A DNA stretch of 64,000 bases from positions 62,001-126,000 of the forward strand of contig DATNBU010000029.1 in assembly GCA_035571835.1 (NCBI GenBank), read 5' to 3'. Shown here one piece after another: positions 1,953-61,402 of the stretch. Position numbers and translations under genes: made by a program. The DNA comes from Candidatus Limnocylindrales bacterium. GTDB lineage: Bacteria; Desulfobacterota; Binatia; UBA1149; CAITLU01. A model generated the notes under the pieces. It saw only the letters and a list, made by a program, of their open reading frames with translations. It did no database searches and had not been told where the DNA came from. Every line of letters starts with the position of its first letter. Position 1 is the first letter of the stretch.

Positions 1953-2966
1953 ATGATTTCCGCGCCGACCATCGCCGCCAGACTCCGCTCCTCGGTTCCA
2001 GTCCTCGTCTTCTGCGCGTTGCTGCCGCTTTCCGGCTGCGGCGACGGAGGCGGCGGATCCGGGAACGCTCCGTCGGTCGAGCTGGACACGCCGATCACAT
2101 CCGACCGGTGCGTCGTCACGATCTCCTACCCGGCGGAAGCGGACGTGGATCTCGCCGACATAAACTTCGACTACTCAGGCGTCACGGGAAATTTCGGCGA
2201 GCGCGGCAGTGCGCGATGCCGAGGCCTGGCTCAAGGCGCTACCCGAACCGCTGCGATCAATGGTTGCGACGACGTCTGCGCTCAAGGGGAGCACCGCGAG
2301 CTTTACCTCAGCTTCGCCATGGGCCAGTCACTCGACGATCTTTCCCTGCATACCCCTGCCGATCTGTTTGAATGCCTTTTCGAGGGCGACGGTTCGACGC
2401 TCACCAGCCTGCCGGGTTCGATCCATCTCACTGGCCCAGCTTTCGCCGATATCAACGCCGTATCCGCGGACGTACACGTCGCGTGCAACGGGTGGCCGAG
2501 CACGACCACGACGACCGTCACGACCACCACGACGCTGCCGTGCGAGGGATCAGAATGCAGTGCGGGCGACGTGGCTCCCGTGCAGATCTGGCTGGACGAC
2601 GCCGTCCAGCTCGGCGCGCTTCAGTTCGACATCGTGTTTTCCGGCGCCGTGGGCAGGTTCGATGAGTTCCACGCGGGCAGCGTGAAGTGTTCGCTCGGTA
2701 CCGGCGTAAACGCATTGTTCGCGACCAACCAGATTCCGCCCATCGACGACGCGACCTGTATCGATTGCGAACGTCGGCTCTCGGCCGCGTTCGCGTTCGG
2801 AGCCGGGTACACGGGGCCCGGCAGGCTGATGACCTGCGACTTCATCGTCGGCGAGCATTCTCCCGTCGCCGGCGACTTTTCGATCAATGTGGTGGACGCG
2901 TCGACGCCAGACGGACAGCAGACGGCGTTTCCCGCAGTATCCGTGCGAGGTCTTCCCCCAGACTAG
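1953..2966 (+). CDS. lipoprotein with two cohesin-like halves joined by a Thr-rich linker
   Basis: About 337 residues. The N-terminus is a lipoprotein signal: hydrophobic core, then LPLSGCGDGGGG with the lipobox Cys. Two beta-rich halves follow, separated by a Thr-rich linker ending in TTTTTLPCEG. The second half has the pattern VQIWLDDAV, LGALQFDIVFSGAVGRF, a GPGRLMTCDF strand and a final VSVRG, which resembles cohesin modules (short beta-sandwich domains that bind dockerins). The first half, with INFDYSG and DLFECLFEGD, looks like a distant copy. Cohesin-like identity is my reading of the pattern, not a database result. The start at 1953 puts the signal peptide at the front and has AAGG upstream. 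Cysteines in both halves suggest disulfides outside the inner membrane. Confidence 0.6.
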   Translation: MISAPTIAARLRSSVPVLVFCALLPLSGCGDGGGGSGNAPSVELDTPITSDRCVVTISYPAEADVDLADINFDYSGVTGNFGERGSARCRGLAQGATRTAAINGCDDVCAQGEHRELYLSFAMGQSLDDLSLHTPADLFECLFEGDGSTLTSLPGSIHLTGPAFADINAVSADVHVACNGWPSTTTTTVTTTTTLPCEGSECSAGDVAPVQIWLDDAVQLGALQFDIVFSGAVGRFDEFHAGSVKCSLGTGVNALFATNQIPPIDDATCIDCERRLSAAFAFGAGYTGPGRLMTCDFIVGEHSPVAGDFSINVVDASTPDGQQTAFPAVSVRGLPPD

Positions 2967-12598: not shown

Positions 12599-13232
12599 CT
12601 ACCGGCTCGAGGCCATGGGTCTTGTGAACTCGAAGCTTGGATCCGCCAAGCCGACGCAACTACTTCGGGAAATCAATTCTGACGGCCTGGGGGCGGGAAG
12701 AACAAACGGCAGCTGTATCTCCTCGCTTGTCCACCATTCGTCTCCGAGGTCCGCCTGCAAAACAATGTTCTCGCATCCATCGTCGTGGTTGGGCTCGAAG
12801 AAGAGCCGAGATGTAGTCATTGTCGGAGCCGCGATAGGCGCCACCAGCTCATAGTAGTGATCGGCCCTCGGCGGCGAGAGGTGTTTTTGTAGATCTAATC
12901 GTACCAGCTTCCCGATGACGGGCAGGATTACCACGTACTCATCCTCCTCCGAGCTTACCAGCGTCCCGAGTTCGGTCCCGTTGGCTTCCGCACTACTGGA
13001 GTCCGATGCTCGACTTCGCTGAGTCGTGGTTCCAGGGCCAGGCAGTCGCCCGTAACGCATTGGAGATCTATGTCTCCGCCCACTGCCTCCGCAGCACTGC
13101 CAAGGCGTCAGAAGCGTGCACCCTATCACCCCCACCGCTTATATCGCCGCATTCCAATGCGAGATCAGATGTTCCAGTGAGAAGGACGACAATTGTAGCG
13201 AGCGCCGCGCCGCCGAGTTGGAATTCTCGCAT
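12599..13232 (-). pseudogene. secreted dockerin-like-module protein, frameshifted
   Basis: The start at 13232 is preceded by AAGGAG at good spacing. The first 40 residues are a signal peptide, then ECGDISGGGDRVHASDALAVL, the module shared with four intact proteins in this window. That frame stops at ACA-TAG near 13068. The next frame gives AVGGDIDLQCVTGDCLALEP, exactly what should follow the module, so a one-base shift lies near 13095. A third frame then carries the remaining coding-like sequence (EDEYVVILPVIGKLVRLDL, FFEPNHDDGCENIVLQADL) to the stop at 12599. At least one and probably two frameshifts are needed. Either a decaying gene or sequencing error. Confidence 0.65.
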
Positions 13233-32673: not shown

Positions 32674-34305
32674 TCAGTTCTGCGTTGATCCGAAGACGTT
32701 CATCGAACCCTTGGTCAGCGTGCGGGTGTCTCCGCCCGTCGCACAACCGAGGATGATATCGACTTCGGCAGCGTTCCCGCCCACCGGCGTGTACTGGCTG
32801 TTCAGTGCGATGACACCCTTGGCCGTCGTCGTCGAGTTGCCCAGGAGCAGCGTCTCCGACGAATCGAGCGGGGTCTGGACATCGTTCTCGACCGCGATCA
32901 GCGTGCAGCTTACCTGCTTCGCCCCATTCGCAAACGGTGAGTTCACCTTCGCGCTGATGAGGTAGTTCGAGGCACCCGTCACGTGCTGCGAGAGCACGTC
33001 CGTGGTCGTTGCGCTGATGCCGGCCGAGTTGAACTTCTGCGTCCAGCCCGGTGACATTCCGTCCTTGCCGGCTGCTCCGGTGGGACCGGTTGCGCCGATC
33101 TGACCCGGAGGTCCTTGCGCGCCCGGAGGTCCGGCGATGCCGTCCTTACCCTGTGCGCCGGCCGGGCCGGTTGCGCCGGTCTGTCCCGGAGGACCCTGCG
33201 ATCCCGGAGGACCTGCGACGCCGTCTGCGCCCTTGGCACCGGTCGGGCCGGTTGCGCCGGTCTGTCCCGGAGGACCTTGGGCTCCCGGAGGTCCGGCAAC
33301 GCCGTCCTTTCCGTTCGCGCCTGGTGCACCCTGAGCGCCGGTCTGCCCCGGAGGTCCGGTGGATCCCGGAGGACCAGCAACGCCGTCCTTGCCATTCAGT
33401 CCCGGAGGTCCGGTGGATCCCGGAGGACCGGCAACGCCGTCCTTGCCCTGCTGTCCCGGAGGACCAGTGGCTCCCGGAGGTCCAGGAATTCCGTCCTGTC
33501 CCGGAGGACCGGTCGATCCCGGAGGACCGGCAACGCCGTCATGTCCGTTCTGTCCCGGAGCGCCAGTCTGTCCCGGAGGACCAGTGGCTCCCGGAGGTCC
33601 CGGTACGCCATCGTGTCCCGGAGCGCCGTCCTTGCCGTCGAGGCCAGGATTACCGTTGAGTCCCGGAGGGCCGAACGGACCAACCGGGCCAGTCGGACCG
33701 GTGGCTCCCGTAAGACCGATGGTGCCCTGCGGTCCGGTAGGACCGGTCGGGCCAGTCGCACCGACTGCGCCAGTCGCGCCGGCCGGGCCGGTCGCGCCAG
33801 CGGGGCCGGCTACACCCTGGGGTCCGGCTGAACCTTGCGGTCCGGTGGGGCCAGCTGCACCCGTGGCGCCAGCTGCGCCTGTCGCGCCAGCAGGTCCGGT
33901 CGGTCCCGGAGGACCGCCAAACTCACCTTGCGGGCCAGTCGGTCCGGTCGGACCGGTTGCACCCACAGCACCTGCCGCGCCGCTCGTGCCCGCCGGACCG
34001 GTAGGCCCAGCGGGACCTTCCGGTCCACGACAATCGCCAACGGTGCAGAAGGTGTCACCATCGGTGTCCTCTTCTGCATCACAGGCCGAATTGCTGTTCG
34101 TATCCCAGCACAGCGTGCCGGCGATAATCGGACAGCCTATTTCCACGTTTTGACCGACTGCGAAACGCAGCAGCCTCAAAGCGTCAGTTGCAACAACGGT
34201 CCCGCTGCCGTCGACATCGCCGCAGACTTCCGTCGCGGCGAGTGCACCTGTCGCACCAAGCAGCACCGCTGACAGCGCTGCTGCAGAAAATCCCATTCTT
34301 TTCAT
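32674..34305 (-). CDS. secreted collagen-like protein with N-terminal half-dockerin module
   Basis: 543 residues from the ATG at 34305, which has GGGGAG upstream. A signal peptide (cleaved near GALAA) leads into [20 protein letters not shown], then RFAVGQ and a final Cys: the single EF-hand module shared by several secreted proteins here. [19 protein letters not shown] follows. From about residue 95 to 430 the protein is Gly-X-Y collagen-like sequence, first GPT/GAT-type, then [11 protein letters not shown]-type with [10 protein letters not shown] units. The last 110 residues ([13 protein letters not shown], then [13 protein letters not shown]) form a compact beta-rich head. Triple-helical trimer formation is expected from the repeat, with the head as the likely trimerisation or binding domain. 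Confidence 0.85.
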
Positions 34306-54128: not shown

Positions 54129-55034
54129 ATGCGAAAGACCATCACGACGGCGACTCTCGCCGCAATCATCCTCAGTGCAACTGCGGCGCTGGCCGCTCCG
54201 GTCTGCGGGGACGTCAACGACAGCAGCTCGGTCACGTCCACCGACGCATTGCTGGTGCTCAAGAGGAGCGTCGAGCAACCCGTCACGCTCGACTGCTCGG
54301 CCTACGCCGATCAGTTCTCTGCGTGCGAGACATCGCTCTCGACCTGCGACGCGGACCTGACGTCGTGCCGAAACGCTCCAGGTTGCGGAAATGGCAACGT
54401 CGACCCCGGCGAGGAGTGTGAGGCCGGAGATTTTGATGGCAGGACATGTGCGAGCGAAGGCTTCGCCGGTGGAGGAACGCTGCTCTGCGCTGCCGGATGC
54501 ACGGTCGACGCGAGTGGTTGCTACGCGGCGCGCTTCGAGGCTACCGACGATACCATCGTCGACCACCAGACCGGCCTCGAGTGGGAGAAGAAAACCGGTG
54601 CGGACGGCGCGGCGAACCTCGCGGACCCTCACGACGTCGACAATCTCTACACGTGGTCGATCTCGACGCCGACTGCGAACGGATCGCTGTTTACGAATTT
54701 TCTTCCATCGCTCAACAACGCGACCTCCAGCGACGGGATTGCCATCGCCGGGTGTTTTGCCGGCCTCTGCGACTGGCGTCTGCCGACCGCTCCGGAACTG
54801 CACGGAATCATCGACCTGACGAGGCCCGGATGCAGCAACGGCACTGCTCCATGCATTGACGAGTTGTTCGGGTCTACGAGCTTCGGCGGCCTCGGATACT
54901 GGACGGCCACGACCAACTCTTACTTCGAGGGATACGCATACGTCGTGGACTTCACAAACGGCTCCGTTCTGACCAACGGCAAGACGGGAAACAGTCACGT
55001 TCGCGCCGTGCGGTCTGCAGCGGAGGCCTTGTAG
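54129..55034 (+). CDS. secreted DUF1566 protein with half-dockerin module
   Basis: 301 residues from the ATG at 54129. A signal peptide (cleaved near ALA-APV) precedes VCGDVNDSSSVTSTDALLVL, the single EF-hand module shared in this window. A short Cys-rich linker (SACETSLSTCDADLTSC) follows. CGNGNVDPGEECEAGDFDG and GGGTLLCAAGCTVDASGC form the Cys-rich repeat common in deltaproteobacterial secreted proteins. From about residue 135 a DUF1566 (Lcl) domain reads TGLEWEKKTG, DPHDVDNLYTW, CDWRLPTAPELHGI, YWTATT and HVRAVRSA. Such domains are C-type lectin-like and bind ligands at the surface. A paralogue lies at 58174. Confidence 0.82.
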   Translation: MRKTITTATLAAIILSATAALAAPVCGDVNDSSSVTSTDALLVLKRSVEQPVTLDCSAYADQFSACETSLSTCDADLTSCRNAPGCGNGNVDPGEECEAGDFDGRTCASEGFAGGGTLLCAAGCTVDASGCYAARFEATDDTIVDHQTGLEWEKKTGADGAANLADPHDVDNLYTWSISTPTANGSLFTNFLPSLNNATSSDGIAIAGCFAGLCDWRLPTAPELHGIIDLTRPGCSNGTAPCIDELFGSTSFGGLGYWTATTNSYFEGYAYVVDFTNGSVLTNGKTGNSHVRAVRSAAEAL

Positions 55035-55197
55035 GACCTGCTTCGCTGTTCTCCGCTTGCAGCTCGCAACGTTGCTGGGCTTCGTACGAGCGAAGGATAT
55101 GCACGGAAGCGTTACAGGCTGCGTTGTGAGACCGTGTACCTTCGACTAAATTGACCGAATTCATACTCTGCTCAAGGCCCCGATCAGGAGGAACCCC

Positions 55198-56376
55198 GTG
55201 AGATCTCTACCGCTTCGCGTCGGTGCGTGTGTTTTTGCATTGCTCTCAGGATTGGCCGCCGGGCCATCGCATGCTGCGTGCGGTGATCTCAATGCCGACG
55301 GCAAGATCCTGGTCGGTGATGCGCTGCTCCTGCTCAAGGTCGCAGTAGGACAGCAGATCGACATTCAGTGTGATGCTGCAGGCGGTGCGTGCTGGGATCT
55401 CGACGCCGACTCGGTCTGTGATCCGATCGAAGACGTCAACAACGACGACTTCTGTGACGTCGAAGATTGTCAGGGCTTGCCAGGACCTGCCGGGCCTACA
55501 GGACCGACGGGACCCGCGGGCGTTGCCGGACCCACCGGCCCGACAGGCGCCGTGGGCGCGACGGGACCGACCGGACACACGGGCCCGACGGGACCGACCG
55601 GACCGAACGGCACCACCGGCCCGACAGGAACGACCGGACCGACGGGTGCGACTGGTCCAACGGGAGCCACCGGTCCAACGGGAGCCACGGGTCCCACAGG
55701 CGCCACCGGACCGACCGGCGCGACCGGACCGACAGGAACTACCGGACCGACGGGTGCAACCGGACCAACGGGTGCAGACGCTTCGTCGCAACATCTGCGG
55801 ACGATCAGTGCGAACTTCGCAGGCACGCCCGCACCCTTCAACGTTCAGAGCAACGTCGACGATCAGTTGAATGAGATCTCGCTTCCGTTCGATTTCGTGA
55901 TCGACGGAGTGCCGTACACGATCATCGACGCGTCAAGTAACGGGTGGCTCAACTTCGGCGGCGCCGCGACGAGCTCGATTCAAAACAACGGCACACTGCC
56001 GAGCGTATTCTTCCCCGGACCGTTCGTCGCTGCGTACTGGGACGATCTCCTCTTCGTGAACCTGTACGCCGGCGTTCGCGGGGAGGCGCCGAACCGCGTG
56101 TATTCCATCGAATGGTTTGCGCAACGATTTCAATCCCCCGGCGTTGCCGTGCCCAACAGTCACATCTCTTTCGCGGTCAAACTTCACGAGACGTCGAACA
56201 TCATCGACGTAACGTACGGCGTGGTCGAGGTAGGCTCGATGGGCAATTCGGCTACAATCGGATTCCAGACTGCGGGCGGTGCGTCCGCGAAGGCGTACCC
56301 GTTGAGCACGAACGTCGACGTCCTGAAGACGGAGTCCCCGAGCAGCCAGGGCTGGAGCATCTCTCCGGTTCGCTAG
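55198..56376 (+). CDS. secreted collagen-like protein with half-dockerin module and beta-sandwich head
   Basis: 392 residues from a GTG with AGGAGG seven bases upstream. Signal peptide cleaved near SHAAC. The module reads [20 protein letters not shown], with AVGQ and a Cys, followed by [20 protein letters not shown]. Residues about 93-195 are nearly perfect GPT-GAT triplets. The last 195 residues form a beta-sandwich-like domain ([59 protein letters not shown]) of the nidogen-like kind. The layout matches the gene at 32674 except for a shorter, more uniform collagen part and a different head. Its DNA repeats are in 18-base units. Confidence 0.85.
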
Positions 56377-56402
56377 GCCGACCTGTTCAGGAAAGCGCGT
56401 CA

Positions 56403-56432
56403 CGCCGGCGGTGATTTCCGATACCGCCGGCG
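56403..56432 (+). terminator. hairpin after the collagen-like gene
   Basis: A perfect 10-base stem (CGCCGGCGGT / ACCGCCGGCG) with a ten-base loop, 27 bases after the stop. No U-tract follows. Confidence 0.5.
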
Positions 56433-56517
56433 CGCGCGTGGTCATGCGGAATTACGACATACGCTCGGACCTTGCGTGCGGTGGGTAACGCTCGACAACG
56501 TTCCGAACGCTTCGCAA

Positions 56518-56661
56518 CTAATGCGTAAGATTGCCTACGATGTGATCGCTGAGCGTTCGTCCGGCGGCTGACGCCTGAAGCACCATGGCGCGACCTTGCG
56601 GTGTCTGCAGAAGAAAGTACGCACCGGCGACCAGCACGAGTCCCAAAACGACTAGTCTCAT
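56518..56661 (-). CDS. very small membrane protein
   Basis: 47 residues, with GAGGGG before the ATG at 56661. One membrane segment (MRLVVLGLVLVAGAYFLLQT) is followed by an Ala/Ser-rich amphipathic stretch (AMVLQASAAGRTLSDHI). The frame extends upstream without a better site. Small single-span proteins like this are easily missed; the family is unknown. Confidence 0.5.
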   Translation of the reverse strand: MRLVVLGLVLVAGAYFLLQTPQGRAMVLQASAAGRTLSDHIVGNLTH

Positions 56662-56910
56662 ATTCCCCTCATTGCAGCCCGGCGCGGAGTCTACACCATG
56701 CACCGGGCCTTCCGTCATTCTGCCATGGATGATCTCGACTCGTCGCACGACGTAAGCCACTCCGTCCGTCGGAAGCACAGCGCGCCTTGCCCCGGGACGA
56801 TGCGGTCGACTGCAAGCTTGCGTTCCGCTGCGGACACCGATGGTCTGCCGCCGGGTCGGGCGGCGACGTGAAGCAAGCGGCTGTCCAGGCGGCCGCGCGC
56901 CCGGAAATCG

Positions 56911-58065
56911 ATGGCGACGTTTTTCATTGCATTGCTCGGTGCTGCCATCGGACTCGCCGGCGGATTCTTCGCCGGCGCGCTGGTCGGCGCGCTCATCGCG
57001 GCCGCCACTCACATGTCGACGTTCGAGGGAGCCGCAGGATACTTCGCGGTGTTTCTGTGCGGGCCGGTCGGTGCGCTGCTCGGGCTCGTCCTCGGCGTGT
57101 GGCTCGCCCTGCTCTTACGTGGCGAACAACGCGGCGGCGGCGCCATAGCGAAATACAGCCTGTCGAGCGTCGGCACGATTGCGGGAGCTTCGGCAGTTGC
57201 CATCTTTCTGGTCCTGCATTTCGACTCGAATCTCAATCGCGGCGGATCCGAGCCGCAGCTGCTGTTCGAGATCCGCATGCCGCCGGGCAGCAAAGTCGCA
57301 GGCGACCGGCACGACGTCGACATCGAGCTTAACACCGATGCGAATTCCGCGTCGGCGTTTCTGCGCCAGGCGCAACACAATGACGGCGATCGTCCGGTTG
57401 TCTCGGGCGGCGTCGAGCTGGCATTCCGCACCGCGAACCGGATCCTCGTGCTCAAGCGCAAGGACGAACCCGACCGGCTGTTCAAACTGACCCTCGCCGC
57501 TCGTCCGCGACACTCCGACGATTACGGAGAGTGGCGGCCGGTCGACGGGGTCGCCGATCCGGGCGCAGAGCGGCCGCGCCCTGCTACGGCGGCCGACCAG
57601 TATGAAATCCGCTACCGCGTGCGCGATCCCGAAGTCGAGTACATGCGACCGATCGTCGCCTTCGAGCTGAGCCTGCCGCCGGCGTCGCACGTGCCCGAGG
57701 ATGTCGAGGCCATCTCGGTCAAGGCGCTCGAAGGACAGAACGACATTGACGGCGCAATCAGCGCCGGGTCGATCAAACGCGGGAATGACCGAGTGATACT
57801 CGAGGGAACGGTGCAGATGGCCGGCGACGTGCATTCGCTCGTCGCCATCTCCATCCCGGACCAGCCTACGCGACTGTTCGAGATCCACCGCCCACCGCTC
57901 GACTGGATCACCGAGCTGCTGCGACGTGCGTCGACGACTCCCGACGATACCGCGCAGACCTACGGGCCCTGGGAAGGCGCCCGGTTCATCCGCGAAGCCG
58001 TCGACTCCGAGCCGCGCGCGGCAGCGTCGTCCGACGATGCGAAGCTGCGCTACATGCTGCAGTAA
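56911..58065 (+). CDS. membrane protein with soluble C-terminal domain, unknown
   Basis: 384 residues. Three membrane segments lie in the first 110 residues (FFIALLGAAIGLAGGFFAGA, YFAVFLCGPVGALLGLVLG and TIAGASAVAIFLVL). The remaining 270 residues are soluble and contain two similar beta-rich halves: LLFEIRMPPGSKV with VELNTD-type sequence, and VAFELSLPPASHVPEDVEAI. The shared pattern FE-I/L-x-x-P-P-x-S suggests an internal duplication. No family recognised. The C-terminus is acidic and helical. Confidence 0.65.
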   Translation: MATFFIALLGAAIGLAGGFFAGALVGALIAAATHMSTFEGAAGYFAVFLCGPVGALLGLVLGVWLALLLRGEQRGGGAIAKYSLSSVGTIAGASAVAIFLVLHFDSNLNRGGSEPQLLFEIRMPPGSKVAGDRHDVDIELNTDANSASAFLRQAQHNDGDRPVVSGGVELAFRTANRILVLKRKDEPDRLFKLTLAARPRHSDDYGEWRPVDGVADPGAERPRPATAADQYEIRYRVRDPEVEYMRPIVAFELSLPPASHVPEDVEAISVKALEGQNDIDGAISAGSIKRGNDRVILEGTVQMAGDVHSLVAISIPDQPTRLFEIHRPPLDWITELLRRASTTPDDTAQTYGPWEGARFIREAVDSEPRAAASSDDAKLRYMLQ

Positions 58066-58173
58066 ATTCCGCGCGATGCGGCACTGGCGGCGCCGGGACA
58101 AGCTTTGTCGGCATCTCTTGTCTGGACGGCCGACGTCGTGCACTGTGCTGCAAATTTCCGCGAGGACATACTG

Positions 58174-59196
58174 ATGACGCAAACGATCGCGACGGCGGTA
58201 CTGGCGATATTCGTACTGAACGCAAGCACAGCGCTGGCCGCCGATCCGGTCTGCGGCGACGTCAACGACAGCAGCTCCATCACCGCGTCGGATGCCCTGT
58301 TTGTTCTCAAAAAGAGCGTCCAGCAGCCGATCGCACTACAATGTACGGCATACGAGAACCGTTTCACCGAGTGCAATACGGAGCTGTCCGACGTTACGGC
58401 CGATCTCGCAGCATGCAGCGCCGACCTGTCCGCGACCAACTCCGATCTCTCGACGTGCAATTCGAACCTCACGACGTGCAGCGGCGATCTGTCCGCGACC
58501 AACAGCGACCTCTCGAGCTGTCACGCGGATCTGTCGGCGACCAACGCCGACCTGACCAATTGCCAGAACGCGCCGGAGTGCGGCAACGGTTCCCTCGAGG
58601 TTGGTGAAGACTGCGAAAGCGGCAATCTCGATGGAAAGGACTGTACGACCGAGGCTTTTCTCGGCGGCACGCTGCGCTGCGCGGCTGGATGCGTCTTCGA
58701 TACGAGCGAGTGCTACGCCACCCGTTTCGATGCCTCCGGCGCCACGATCATCGATCGCCAGACCGGTCTGGAATGGGAAAAGAAGGACGCTGCCGGCGGC
58801 GGTTCTTCGAGCTGTCCCGGCGGACCGACCTGTCAGAATCCGCACGACGTGGACAACATCTACAAGCTCAGCAGTAGCGGAACGGTTGCCGACGGCGGAG
58901 CGTTCACGGATTTTCTCGCGAGGCTCAACGCCGGCTCTTCGCTCGACGGCGAGGCGACGACGGCCTGCTATGCGGGGCATTGCGACTGGCGACTGCCGAC
59001 CATCGAGGAGCTGAAATCGGTTCCGTGGCCGGGCATCCCCGAGTTCGAACCCGACGCAGCCGCGAACTACTGGTCGGCGACGACGTACGCGAACGACGCC
59101 GGAATCGCGTTCTATCTGACGACGACTGACGGGCTTCAGGGCTACTATTTCAAGTCGACGCCCTACTACGCGCGCGCGGTCCGCTCCGCGTCCTGA
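58174..59196 (+). CDS. secreted DUF1566 protein with half-dockerin module and expanded coiled linker
   Basis: 340 residues from the ATG at 58174 with GAGGA upstream. Signal peptide cleaved near ALA-ADP, then VCGDVNDSSSITASDALFVL and LQC, almost the same module as the gene at 54129. The linker is expanded into repeats of about ten residues with S-A-D-L or S-D-L steps (LSATNSDLSTCNSNLTTC), a likely coiled coil with paired cysteines. CGNGSLEVGEDCESGNLDG and GGTLRCAAGCVFDTSEC follow. The C-terminal DUF1566 domain has TGLEWEKKDAAGG, NPHDVDNIYKL, CDWRLPTIEELKSV, YWSATTYAND and YYARAVRSA. It is a clear paralogue of 54129. Confidence 0.85.
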   Translation: MTQTIATAVLAIFVLNASTALAADPVCGDVNDSSSITASDALFVLKKSVQQPIALQCTAYENRFTECNTELSDVTADLAACSADLSATNSDLSTCNSNLTTCSGDLSATNSDLSSCHADLSATNADLTNCQNAPECGNGSLEVGEDCESGNLDGKDCTTEAFLGGTLRCAAGCVFDTSECYATRFDASGATIIDRQTGLEWEKKDAAGGGSSSCPGGPTCQNPHDVDNIYKLSSSGTVADGGAFTDFLARLNAGSSLDGEATTACYAGHCDWRLPTIEELKSVPWPGIPEFEPDAAANYWSATTYANDAGIAFYLTTTDGLQGYYFKSTPYYARAVRSAS

Positions 59197-59269: not shown

Positions 59270-61402
59270 CTAGTCGCGGGGACACGTCCGGTTGGCTGCG
59301 CCGTCGTCGAATGTATCGCAGTCGACGAACGGCGCGTCCGTAGCGACGACGATACGACAGACGCGGCATTTCGCCAGCCTCGCTGCGCAGCTGTCGAACG
59401 TCGAGTCGTTCGCGAGCGCGGCGCAGTCGCCCGGGAACGTCGTGGCCATGGACAGAGAGGGGCAGGACTTGCCGCGCGAGGCACCGAGTTTGGCCACGCT
59501 CTTGCCGAGCGACGATTCCGGATCCGCAGCCGCCGTGCCGACGGTGAGCAGGCACGCATCGAGTCCGAGGCGGGAGACAATGGATTCCTTGATCCCCGCC
59601 TTCTTGCACTTGACGAAACTCTTGAGCTCGGCGTTGACCAGCTTCTCGAGCGCGCCGTGCACGGCCGTCTGGCACTTGGCGACATTTGGATCGCTGCCGG
59701 TGACGACATCGTCGAGGCTCGCGCCGAAAAGATCGGCAACGAGGTCCACTCTCTCGTTGTCGGCATGCGCGAGGATCGGTGCGGTCGCCTGCGCGCCGAA
59801 GTCCGGCAGAGTCCCGCAGCTCTTCGTGTAAATGTCCGTGACCTTGGTTGCCGCCGCGCCGACTTTCCCGCCGGCGTCGAGCGTGAGGCACGACTGCGGC
59901 GCGGGCTCGGTTCCCTTGGCAGCGTTCTTCACACAGGCCGCGTTCGCCTTGCCCTGCGCGGCCGACAGTTTGACCCCCGCACCGTTGAGGCCGGTCAGGC
60001 ATTTGGCCTGGTTCGACGTCTGGGGAGGCGTCGTGCATCCGGGAACAGCGCTGTGCTGGCACGTGAGGATTCCGTTGCAGGCGTCGACTGTGCAGTCGTC
60101 ACTATCGTCGTTGCACGAGGCGCCCCCCGGGATGGAGTTATGCAGGCAGGTACCCGTTCCGTCGCAGTACTCGATCGTGCAGTCGAGACCATCGTCATAG
60201 CACGGTGCGCCGCCCGCGATGTTCATGTGCGCGCAGGTGCCGAAACCGTTGCAGTTGTCGAAAGTGCAATCGTTTGCATCATCCTCGCAGACACCGCCCG
60301 CGCCGACACTCTGGTGCGCGCAGGTGCCGAAGCCGTTGCAGTTGTCGAAGGTGCAGAGATTCGAATCGTCAGTGCACTGCGCACCGGCCCCCACGTTCAA
60401 ATGGCTCGTCGAGCCGGCGCCGCTGCACTGGTCGAAAGTACAATCGTTTTCGTCGTCGTCGCCCCGAGCGCCGGCGGCAACTGCAGCGTGCTGGCATGCA
60501 CCGAAACCGTCGCAGTTGTCGAAAGTGCAGAGGTTGCCGTCGTCCGTGCACTCCCCGCCCGCGCCCCGGTTCGGATGAGAGCAGACGCCGACGGCGCAAA
60601 GGTCGGCCGTACAGGGGTTGCCGTCGTCGGGGCACGCGGTGGTGTCCTCGTCGACAGCGCAGTTGTTCGTACAGGTCGGGTCGCCGGAGTGCTTGCATAC
60701 ACCGGCAACGCAGAAGTCGCTCGTACACGCGTTGCCGTCGCTCTCGCAGATGGCGAGGTCCGGTACCACCATGTGCGCGCAGGTGCCACTTCCGTTGCAG
60801 AAATCACGGGTGCATGCGTTGCCGTCGTCGCTGCAGAACGACTGGTTGGGCGCGACGGGATGCGTGCAGACGCCGGCGCCGTTGCAGAAGTCGTGCGTGC
60901 ACTCGTTGCCGTCGTCGTTGCAGCTGGCGAGGTTCGGAGCCGCTGGATGCGTACAGGTTCCCGAACCGTTGCAGAAGTCGCGCGTGCACTCGTTCCCCTC
61001 GTCCGCGCACTCGGAATAGTTCGGCGCATTCGGATGGCTGCAGACCGCTCCGGCCGCGCAGAAATCGCGCGTGCAATCGTTGCCGTCGTCGGAACAGGCC
61101 GACTGGCCCGGCATTTCGGGATGCGTGCACACCCCCGCGCCATTGCAGAAGTCGTGCGTGCACTCGTTGCCGTCGTCATTGCACGGTGTGTTGCTGGGCT
61201 CGTTCGGATGAATGCAGATCCCGGCGCCGTTGCAGAAGTCCCGGGTGCACTCGATGCCGTCGTCCGTGCAAGGGAAGCCGGCCGGTTGCCCGTCGCAATC
61301 GACGGCGCTTGCGCGAACGACGCTGCCGGCGAGCAGCGCGAGGCAGGCCATCAGAACGAACGACAAAGACGGACGAGCCGTCCTGCTCGGTACAAAATTC
61401 AT
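59270..61402 (-). CDS. secreted protein with 14 Cys-rich repeats
   Basis: 710 residues with a GGGGGAT site before the ATG. The signal peptide ends near RASA-VDC. Residues about 40-450 are fourteen tandem repeats of about 29 residues of the type C-x-DDGNECTRDFCNG then GVCTHP. Repeat 10 has lost its first and fourth cysteines (GARGDDDENDCTFDQC, GAGSTSH). The C-terminal 230 residues contain KCLTGLNGAGVKLSAAQGK and ACVKNAAKG, then VAKCQTAVHGALEKLV, a helical pattern with spaced cysteines. The repeats resemble small disulfide-rich EGF- or TIL-like modules. A surface or extracellular structural role is inferred. Confidence 0.82.
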   Translation of the reverse strand: MNFVPSRTARPSLSFVLMACLALLAGSVVRASAVDCDGQPAGFPCTDDGIECTRDFCNGAGICIHPNEPSNTPCNDDGNECTHDFCNGAGVCTHPEMPGQSACSDDGNDCTRDFCAAGAVCSHPNAPNYSECADEGNECTRDFCNGSGTCTHPAAPNLASCNDDGNECTHDFCNGAGVCTHPVAPNQSFCSDDGNACTRDFCNGSGTCAHMVVPDLAICESDGNACTSDFCVAGVCKHSGDPTCTNNCAVDEDTTACPDDGNPCTADLCAVGVCSHPNRGAGGECTDDGNLCTFDNCDGFGACQHAAVAAGARGDDDENDCTFDQCSGAGSTSHLNVGAGAQCTDDSNLCTFDNCNGFGTCAHQSVGAGGVCEDDANDCTFDNCNGFGTCAHMNIAGGAPCYDDGLDCTIEYCDGTGTCLHNSIPGGASCNDDSDDCTVDACNGILTCQHSAVPGCTTPPQTSNQAKCLTGLNGAGVKLSAAQGKANAACVKNAAKGTEPAPQSCLTLDAGGKVGAAATKVTDIYTKSCGTLPDFGAQATAPILAHADNERVDLVADLFGASLDDVVTGSDPNVAKCQTAVHGALEKLVNAELKSFVKCKKAGIKESIVSRLGLDACLLTVGTAAADPESSLGKSVAKLGASRGKSCPSLSMATTFPGDCAALANDSTFDSCAARLAKCRVCRIVVATDAPFVDCDTFDDGAANRTCPRD

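Follow-up and report, generated by a model that had tools for sequence, protein, structure and literature searches.

A single-loop, dockerin-like module at the N-terminus of putative fibrous adhesins, and its candidate cohesin-like partners, in a Binatia genome

Introduction

What role may a single calcium-type loop play, when it is placed directly behind the signal peptide of otherwise dissimilar secreted proteins? The question is raised by a stretch of 64,000 nucleotides (assembly GCA_035571835.1, contig DATNBU010000029.1, positions 62,001-126,000, forward strand), called here the window, to which all coordinates below refer. Four intact genes and a broken one in the window encode a short module made of one EF-hand-like loop, one helix and a closing cysteine (Cys), and lie where a first-pass annotation of the same DNA had placed them. 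By sequence comparison the module is nearly certainly homologous to half of a type I dockerin. It coexists in the genome with two-repeat modules of the same family, and cohesin-like domains, many of which are found in lipoproteins, are proposed as its partners. The order hosting the window belongs, by indirect placement, to Candidatus Binatia, which we take to be part of Binatota. The latter has been described as a yet-uncultured lineage (PMC8262859).

Results

Genes carrying the single-loop module

The four intact genes feature the same layout, in which the signal peptide is followed by a C-G-D-x-N/D-x-S/D loop, a D-A-L helix and the closing Cys. Modules were located by profile search and by reading the loop ligands. 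Two genes, both on the plus strand, encode proteins with an Lcl_C (DUF1566) domain. In the gene at 54129..55034 (Pfam Lcl_C, expectation value (E) 3.5e-18) the module APVCGDVNDSSSVTSTDALLVLKRSVEQPVTLDC (54195..54296) is separated by a Cys-rich region from the Lcl_C domain (54552..55013), which was detected both by Pfam and by a genome-wide Lcl_C search. In the gene at 58174..59196 (Pfam Lcl_C, E 2e-16) the module DPVCGDVNDSSSITASDALFVLKKSVQQPIALQC (58243..58344) precedes a Cys-containing heptad-like stretch and an Lcl_C domain located by the genome-wide search (58744..59184). The heptad-like repeat joining module and head has regularly spaced Cys (LSATNSDLSTCNSNL...), and is possibly a disulfide-locked coiled-coil stalk.

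The other two genes encode collagen-like proteins. One is found at 55198..56376 on the plus strand (Pfam Collagen, E 2.2e-14; module at 55270..55371), and the other, which encodes a long protein, at 32674..34305 on the minus strand (E 5.3e-51; module at 34132..34233). In both, module and collagen-like part are connected by a CWD...CD...DC spacer. The same spacer, in the fuller form CWD...CD..ED...C...DC-G, is found at the same place in five other loci (L050, L092, L181, L186, L207), and is itself abundant in possible calcium ligands. The broken gene (12599..13232, minus strand) shows at least two frame changes when read by eye, and encodes a degenerate single-loop module. Relatives with an open frame were recognized by eye at L177 and L205.

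The loop pattern proposed by the first-pass annotation holds for the ligand loop, the helix and the Cys, and all four intact modules have Asp, Asn or Ser at loop positions 1, 3, 5 and 12. It fails in details, as position 6 is Ser rather than Gly in two of the four, and the broken copy has a 13-residue loop in which position 3 is Ser. In the search of the own genome, the window modules were found at E 2.6e-21 to 7.3e-19, values flattered by the fact that the profile had been built from these same four copies; the best three independent copies, found at E 1.7e-18 to 3e-17, thus provide a fairer comparison. Pfam assigns 12-16 bits to Dockerin_1 in three of the four intact proteins, the cut-off being 22.9, and reports no match for the 55198 product.

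Abundance of the module in the genome

The profile of the four window modules was run against the whole genome (5.46 Mb, 46 contigs). At least 150 places were found, all at E <=5.8e-4; this is a lower bound, as 150 of 256 candidates were scored. Stretches around 128 of these places were taken, and reading frames were inspected. In total 125 open module-bearing open reading frames (ORFs) were counted, 22 of which have a single loop; the remaining 103 were all counted as two-repeat, although several first repeats were seen only by eye and L084, in which the two hits are far apart, is doubtful. Left out of the count are the broken window copy, the weak partial hits L130 and L104, and duplicate reads (L095 and L096, corresponding to the window, and L100, corresponding to L099). 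The module genes L272 and L242 are not among the 125 either, and the tally is therefore incomplete.

Each of the 22 proteins has one repeat by profile search and frame reading, and thus none is an ordinary two-loop dockerin. In all of them the module was read directly behind the signal peptide; one protein (L078) has two single copies, far apart from each other. Two-repeat modules are distributed differently. Sixty-eight of the 103 end 0-34 residues from the C-terminus, 22 are N-terminal and 13 internal, three doubtful positions having been assigned by reading.

Relationship with type I dockerins

A profile of the module (A2) matches the type I dockerins 1ohz_B (E 8.2e-7) and 2ccl_B (E 1.1e-6) in PDB. 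Loop ligands arranged as D-x-N-x-S/D-...-D and the following helix are shared with type I dockerins (PF00404); the module differs from these because it has one repeat instead of two, is N-terminal, is closed by Cys, and combines the entry of one repeat with the exit of the other. The last feature emerges from the comparison with the two-repeat modules of the same genome, which have Cys at both repeats. The entry C-G/A-D is found in 23/23 single copies and in the first repeat of 64 of the 103 two-repeat modules; second repeats open with C-D/N/S in 101/103. An exit spacing of 7 is found in 23/23 single copies and in 90/103 second repeats; among the 103 first repeats, 74 have a spacing of 4 and 14 a spacing of 5. 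The single module opens as repeat 1 does and closes as repeat 2 does. It hence looks like a two-repeat module deprived of its middle, or the history may have run in reverse. In view of the match to PDB dockerins, the 103 relatives of the same family and the chimeric make-up, the first-pass annotation is not supported where it sets the module apart, as a different design, from true dockerins.

Single-loop modules are well preserved. All four loop ligands (D1, N/D3, D/S5, D12) are present in 20 of the 22 proteins, the exceptions being L074, which has a 13-residue loop, and L113, which is degenerate; the closing Cys is present in all 22. Calcium binding is predicted from these ligands. In two-repeat modules, two additional Cys, one just ahead of loop 2 and the other beyond the last helix, vary together: in the 100 of 103 genes that were parsed, both are present in 39, neither in 51, and discordant cases are 9 and 1 (Fisher p 6e-18). 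The covariation supports a disulfide staple between loop entry and tail, and the Cys preceding the loop and the Cys following the helix are probably bonded in the single modules as well. Both loops are intact in 52 of the 103 two-repeat modules. Loop 1 is lost in 18/22 N-terminal, 26/68 C-terminal and 4/13 internal ones, and N-terminal modules of either kind have consequently mostly one working loop.

The Pfam model PF00404 detects only part of the family. Its cut-off was passed at 29 of 100 places, and the same model matched in 9 of 14 control genomes, in two over the cut-off. Among single-loop genes, only C41:134294 (L129) exceeds the Pfam dockerin cut-off, and only if neighbours in frame are included.

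Distribution in the order

The module is found in all 13 genomes of the order that were examined, at 12 to 139 places in each. Forty stretches from 11 other genomes of the order, chosen as best-scoring places and thus not a random sample, include 39 single-loop ORFs. These come from eight genomes (G001, G002, G003, G005, G006, G007, G009, G011) of families f1, f2 and f4. In G008, G010 and G012, all of family f3, one stretch was read from each, and the module found there is of the two-repeat kind. A scan of contigs returned 26 named loci, including L147, L149 and L150, all three single-loop and N-terminal; the genomes of these three have module hits at the very coordinates seen in G002, G003 and G011. 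Three loci were found by scanning viral contigs with the module profile. The single N-terminal loop, closed by Cys and joined to several kinds of cargo, is hence a recurrent design, as the first-pass annotation had supposed, and is not confined to one contig.

Cargo domains

Pfam families identified in the 22 single-loop proteins are Lcl_C (12), collagen (3), beta-roll (2), CAP (1) and pentapeptide (1). Two-repeat proteins, of which 84 of 103 were searched because of a length limit, carry RCC1, PD40, disintegrin-like, laminin G, MtrC/MtrF-type cytochrome and other domains; neither Lcl_C nor collagen is present among the 25 of 59 families listed for them. When a local profile was used for Lcl_C and a sequence pattern for collagen, one or the other was found in 15/22 single-loop genes vs 0/103 two-repeat genes (p 1.9e-14). 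Contrary to what the first-pass annotation had proposed, cargo is therefore not freely interchangeable. Beta-rolls were counted only by Pfam or by eye, as a pattern search missed known cases.

The same cargo recurs in the other genomes of the order, where 22 of the 39 single-loop ORFs have Lcl_C and two have collagen; eight more combine, as judged by eye, a beta-roll-like head with a short stretch resembling a coiled coil. Seen from the side of the cargo, the whole genome has 19 Lcl_C domains in 18 proteins, and 12 of these have the single module. Single-loop proteins of Binatia may form trimers.

Some two-repeat proteins deserve mention. MtrC/MtrF-type outer-membrane cytochrome domains were found in 2 of the 84, a possible link between the tag and electron transfer. 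The L128 ORF (2669-5470, contig C41 of the own genome) has an N-terminal two-repeat module, a Thr-rich linker and then a CxxCH-rich sequence. One two-repeat ORF (alignment A5) matches the secretin family (E 1.8e-24).

Cohesin-like domains

Seven two-repeat proteins of the genome have a conserved domain of about 120 residues after the module. Searches with its profile (E<=1 and E<=1e-5) gave 33 places in the genome, several in tandem, which hold a cohesin-like domain of about 110 residues. Module and cohesin-like domain are found on the same chain in at least 11 cases. Many of the proteins hosting the domain read as lipoproteins with Thr-rich linkers. Sixteen genes with the cohesin-like domain are not among the 125, although one of them (L242) does carry a module; a lipobox, assigned by a fixed rule, is present in 10 of these 16 vs 4 of the 125 (p 1e-8).

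The candidate receptor of the window is the lipoprotein encoded at 1953..2966 on the plus strand, which was detected by profile search and has a lipobox (LSGC), and one clear and one weak cohesin-like domain connected by a Thr-rich linker; the first-pass annotation of the module genes does not refer to it. The clear one (2580..2945) scores 86 bits with the iterated profile, and reaches E 2.5e-25 with alignment A7, of which it is itself a member. The weak one (2115..2483) was matched at 38 bits, with the iterated profile only.

The 110-residue domain is probably a distant cohesin, on the basis of profile comparisons. Aligned by hhalign to a set of eight cohesin-type domains, of which six come from members of the same class and exceed the Pfam cut-off and two come from G008 and do not, the profile gave Prob 94 and E 1.4e-7, columns 2-108 being paired with 20-134. 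Prob is 93.6 with the six over-cut-off cohesins alone, and 91.8 with four of them. In controls, 50 column shuffles gave Prob <=0.8, the reversed profile 0.3, and Lcl_C 0.1. Cohesins recognized by PF00963 are present in five class-mates outside the order, and the cohesin-like profile directly matches a Pfam-recognized cohesin of G018 (independent E 8.8e-4, in a small ORF set, the place having been matched by coordinate arithmetic). When a low-confidence model of the window domain was compared to known structures by VIA-align, cohesins occupied 26 of 50 rows (24 by title, plus 2 scaffoldin entries), including ranks 3-9. The best of them has Z 5.3 over 102 residues at 3.4 Å; according to the tool, Z below 8 may mean only a common arrangement.

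Two genomes of family f3, G008 (L144) and G010 (L145), encode long proteins in which weak cohesin-type domains, a dockerin-like module and many Cys-rich repeats form a scaffoldin-like layout. Viral contigs were scanned with the cohesin-like profile, and no match was found.

Co-occurrence and gene neighbourhood

Module and cohesin-like domain occur together. Among 145 genomes of the class, both searches being taken to cover the same set as the listed handles suggest, 18 have both, one has the cohesin-like domain only, none the module only, and 126 neither. The 18 correspond to all 13 genomes of the order, the rest falling in family f9. Within the 13, the copy numbers of the two are correlated (Spearman 0.97; 0.90 per Mb), module counts in the largest genomes being lower bounds.

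The genes are juxtaposed at a few places, which were not counted as proof. At L062, L194 and L200 a single-loop Lcl_C gene lies beside a gene with two cohesin-like domains, and at L164, read by eye, a cohesin-like lipoprotein gene lies between two dockerin genes. In the window, the gene at 58174 is adjoined by an ORF (59270-61402, minus strand) encoding a protein of 710 amino acids with about a dozen short Cys-rich repeats, which match the slime-mould Dicty_CTDC family in 12 stretches (Pfam, E 7.5e-18).

Discussion

It is proposed that the module serves to attach, by the N-terminus, secreted fibrous adhesins that are mostly of trimer type and are built of Lcl_C, collagen or coiled-coil and beta-roll parts. 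The half-dockerin, made of one calcium loop and one helix, with a disulfide probably bridging the Cys ahead of the loop and that behind the helix, would dock in a calcium-dependent way onto divergent cohesin-like domains, many of them on lipoproteins such as that encoded at 1953-2966. The same receptors would also hold about one hundred two-repeat proteins, most of which are tagged at the extreme C-terminus. Exposure at the cell surface is presumed. Docking of the module onto the cohesin-like domain is plausible, and the case for it slightly outweighs the doubts. The reading as a whole, an order-wide, disulfide-stapled and non-cellulosomal system in which half-dockerins hold trimer-type adhesins on cohesin-like lipoproteins, is about evenly poised between acceptance and doubt.

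Several results weigh against this proposal. PF00963 finds no cohesin in the own genome and none over the cut-off in the 13 genomes of the order; no Pfam cohesin was found for any of the 37 rows of the cohesin-like alignment, and the A7 profile (as well as A6) matches no PDB chain by sequence. The AlphaFold2 model of the window domain, built from the sequence alone, is poor (predicted local distance difference test, pLDDT, 53; predicted template modelling score 0.48), no significant match to it was found by Foldseek, and the top two VIA-align rows, Clostridioides difficile CspC and CspA (Z 5.7 and 5.5), are unrelated to cohesins. For a distant relative of the domain (L164), modelled on a three-row alignment, pLDDT was 39, and the model was set aside. 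In the lipoproteins, the first domain is not convincing as a cohesin (hhalign Prob 0.3 to A8 and 5.1 to A7), and in the window protein only 2580-2945 has hence been called clear. The genomes in which module and domain co-occur are clustered on the tree, in one order and one other family, and thus reflect few independent events; both copy numbers could follow a third variable, such as the size of the secretome, and the p-values given above treat paralogues as independent. Cohesin-like genes are not significantly close to module genes in the own genome (2/16 within 1.5 kb vs 1.1 expected), and adjacency has for this reason been dropped as evidence of partnership. Finally, 6 of the 18 Lcl_C proteins lack the single module; one has a degenerate two-repeat module, and the remaining five (L263, L266, L267, L270, L271) another Cys-rich N-terminal region.

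Other explanations account for parts of the data. The single-loop module may be a structural cap, or a piece nucleating trimers, in which three stapled units pack together or on the stalk and calcium serves folding rather than docking. EF-hand halves generally tend to pair, and the strictly N-terminal position in the 22 cases of the own genome, mostly next to trimer-type cargo, would suit such a role. A cap is hard to figure at the extreme C-terminus of the 68 genes that carry the same family with neither Lcl_C nor collagen, and would leave the parallel copy numbers of modules and cohesin-like domains unaccounted for; this explanation looks rather improbable. Much less credible is that single-loop modules are decaying, functionless dockerins left by internal deletions. 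One copy in the window is indeed a broken gene, and one-repeat dockerins of Ruminococcus flavefaciens have been termed possibly partial and non-functional (PMC2930009). Decay is at odds with complete ligands in 20 of 22 proteins, with entry and exit invariant in all 23 copies, and with the recurrence of the design in eight other genomes of three families.

A further alternative concerns the partner. The 110-residue domain could be another beta-sandwich, resembling for instance the family 3 carbohydrate-binding module (CBM3), the real partner lying elsewhere, possibly in a secretion-linked sorting receptor for C-terminal modules. Neither Pfam nor PDB sequence searches return a cohesin; in VIA-align, 9 of 50 rows correspond to CBM3 modules or to C-terminal portions of family 9 cellulases, which we take to be of CBM3 type; and the top four Foldseek rows are the cellulase CelQ. 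The 68 modules close to the C-terminus are also placed as sorting tags would be. This alternative is nevertheless unlikely, given that the hhalign match to cohesins is far above shuffles, that the domain is enriched in lipoproteins and co-occurs with the modules, and that at least 11 chains combine module and domain, as do some scaffoldin-like proteins (PMC9012536).

The proposed docking system has partial precedents. Ruminococcus flavefaciens has standard cohesins. In this species, one-repeat group 2 (truncated) dockerins, for which a single-binding mode was proposed, and, separately, N-terminal dockerins in 19 proteins have been described (PMC2930009), and provide a precedent for each of the two features. 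There, the one-repeat dockerins lie at the C-terminus and retain repeat 1, and neither Cys closure nor stalk-type cargo is mentioned in the accessible part of that source (PMC2930009). Non-cellulosomal sets of cohesins and dockerins, with adhesion-type roles proposed, are known in anaerobic methanotrophic (ANME) archaea and partner bacteria (PMC9012536, PMC10553843). As in Binatia, both modules occur there in organisms not known for cellulose degradation, and some chains have both. As far as these sources describe them, the ANME sets are recognized by standard domain libraries; in Binatia the cohesin side is below the thresholds tested, has Cys and is often found on lipoproteins, and the dockerin side differs for the Cys-closed repeats and the half form. 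A cellulosome-like set has been reported in Cloacimonadota (PMC8542988).

On the side of the cargo, the closest parallel is Legionella Lcl, a trimeric protein, the N-terminal piece of which has been proposed as its anchor on the bacterial surface (PMC11162425). The succession of N-terminal attachment piece, stalk and DUF1566/Lcl_C head is alike, the head family being that of the 54129 and 58174 products. Lcl attaches by an amphipathic N-terminal helix (PMC11162425); the front piece of the window proteins is a half-dockerin. Furthermore, Lcl_C and collagen are found by Pfam on different window proteins, never in one chain as in Lcl, and two window collagen proteins score 53.9 and 111.6 bits with NF046116 (Legionella Lcl), below its cut-off of 500. 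No description of a cohesin/dockerin system in Binatia or Binatota was found in a literature search; a mention in Peer et al. 2009 or in other papers is possible.

The modules and cohesin-like domains described here suggest an unrecognized way to attach proteins to the bacterial surface, a variation on the cohesin/dockerin theme larger than the first-pass annotation had described. More tentatively, and with the balance tilted to doubt, this might be a lineage-specific surface display without a cellulosome, in which about one hundred two-repeat tags with Cys staples and about twenty half-dockerins are sorted by the oligomeric state of the cargo, trimers taking the half form and monomers the two-repeat one. 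The half-dockerin would suit trimeric adhesins through avidity, as each particle would present three copies to the cohesin-like lipoproteins. If the proposal is true, cohesin/dockerin docking would extend from enzyme scaffolds to a general code for surface attachment, and a natural minimal dockerin of about 32 residues, probably disulfide-stapled, would be of use to protein engineers. It would also become testable whether one calcium loop suffices for the docking of trimeric cargo. The results further suggest that some genomes which seem to possess dockerins but no cohesins may encode cohesins that score too low for the domain libraries.

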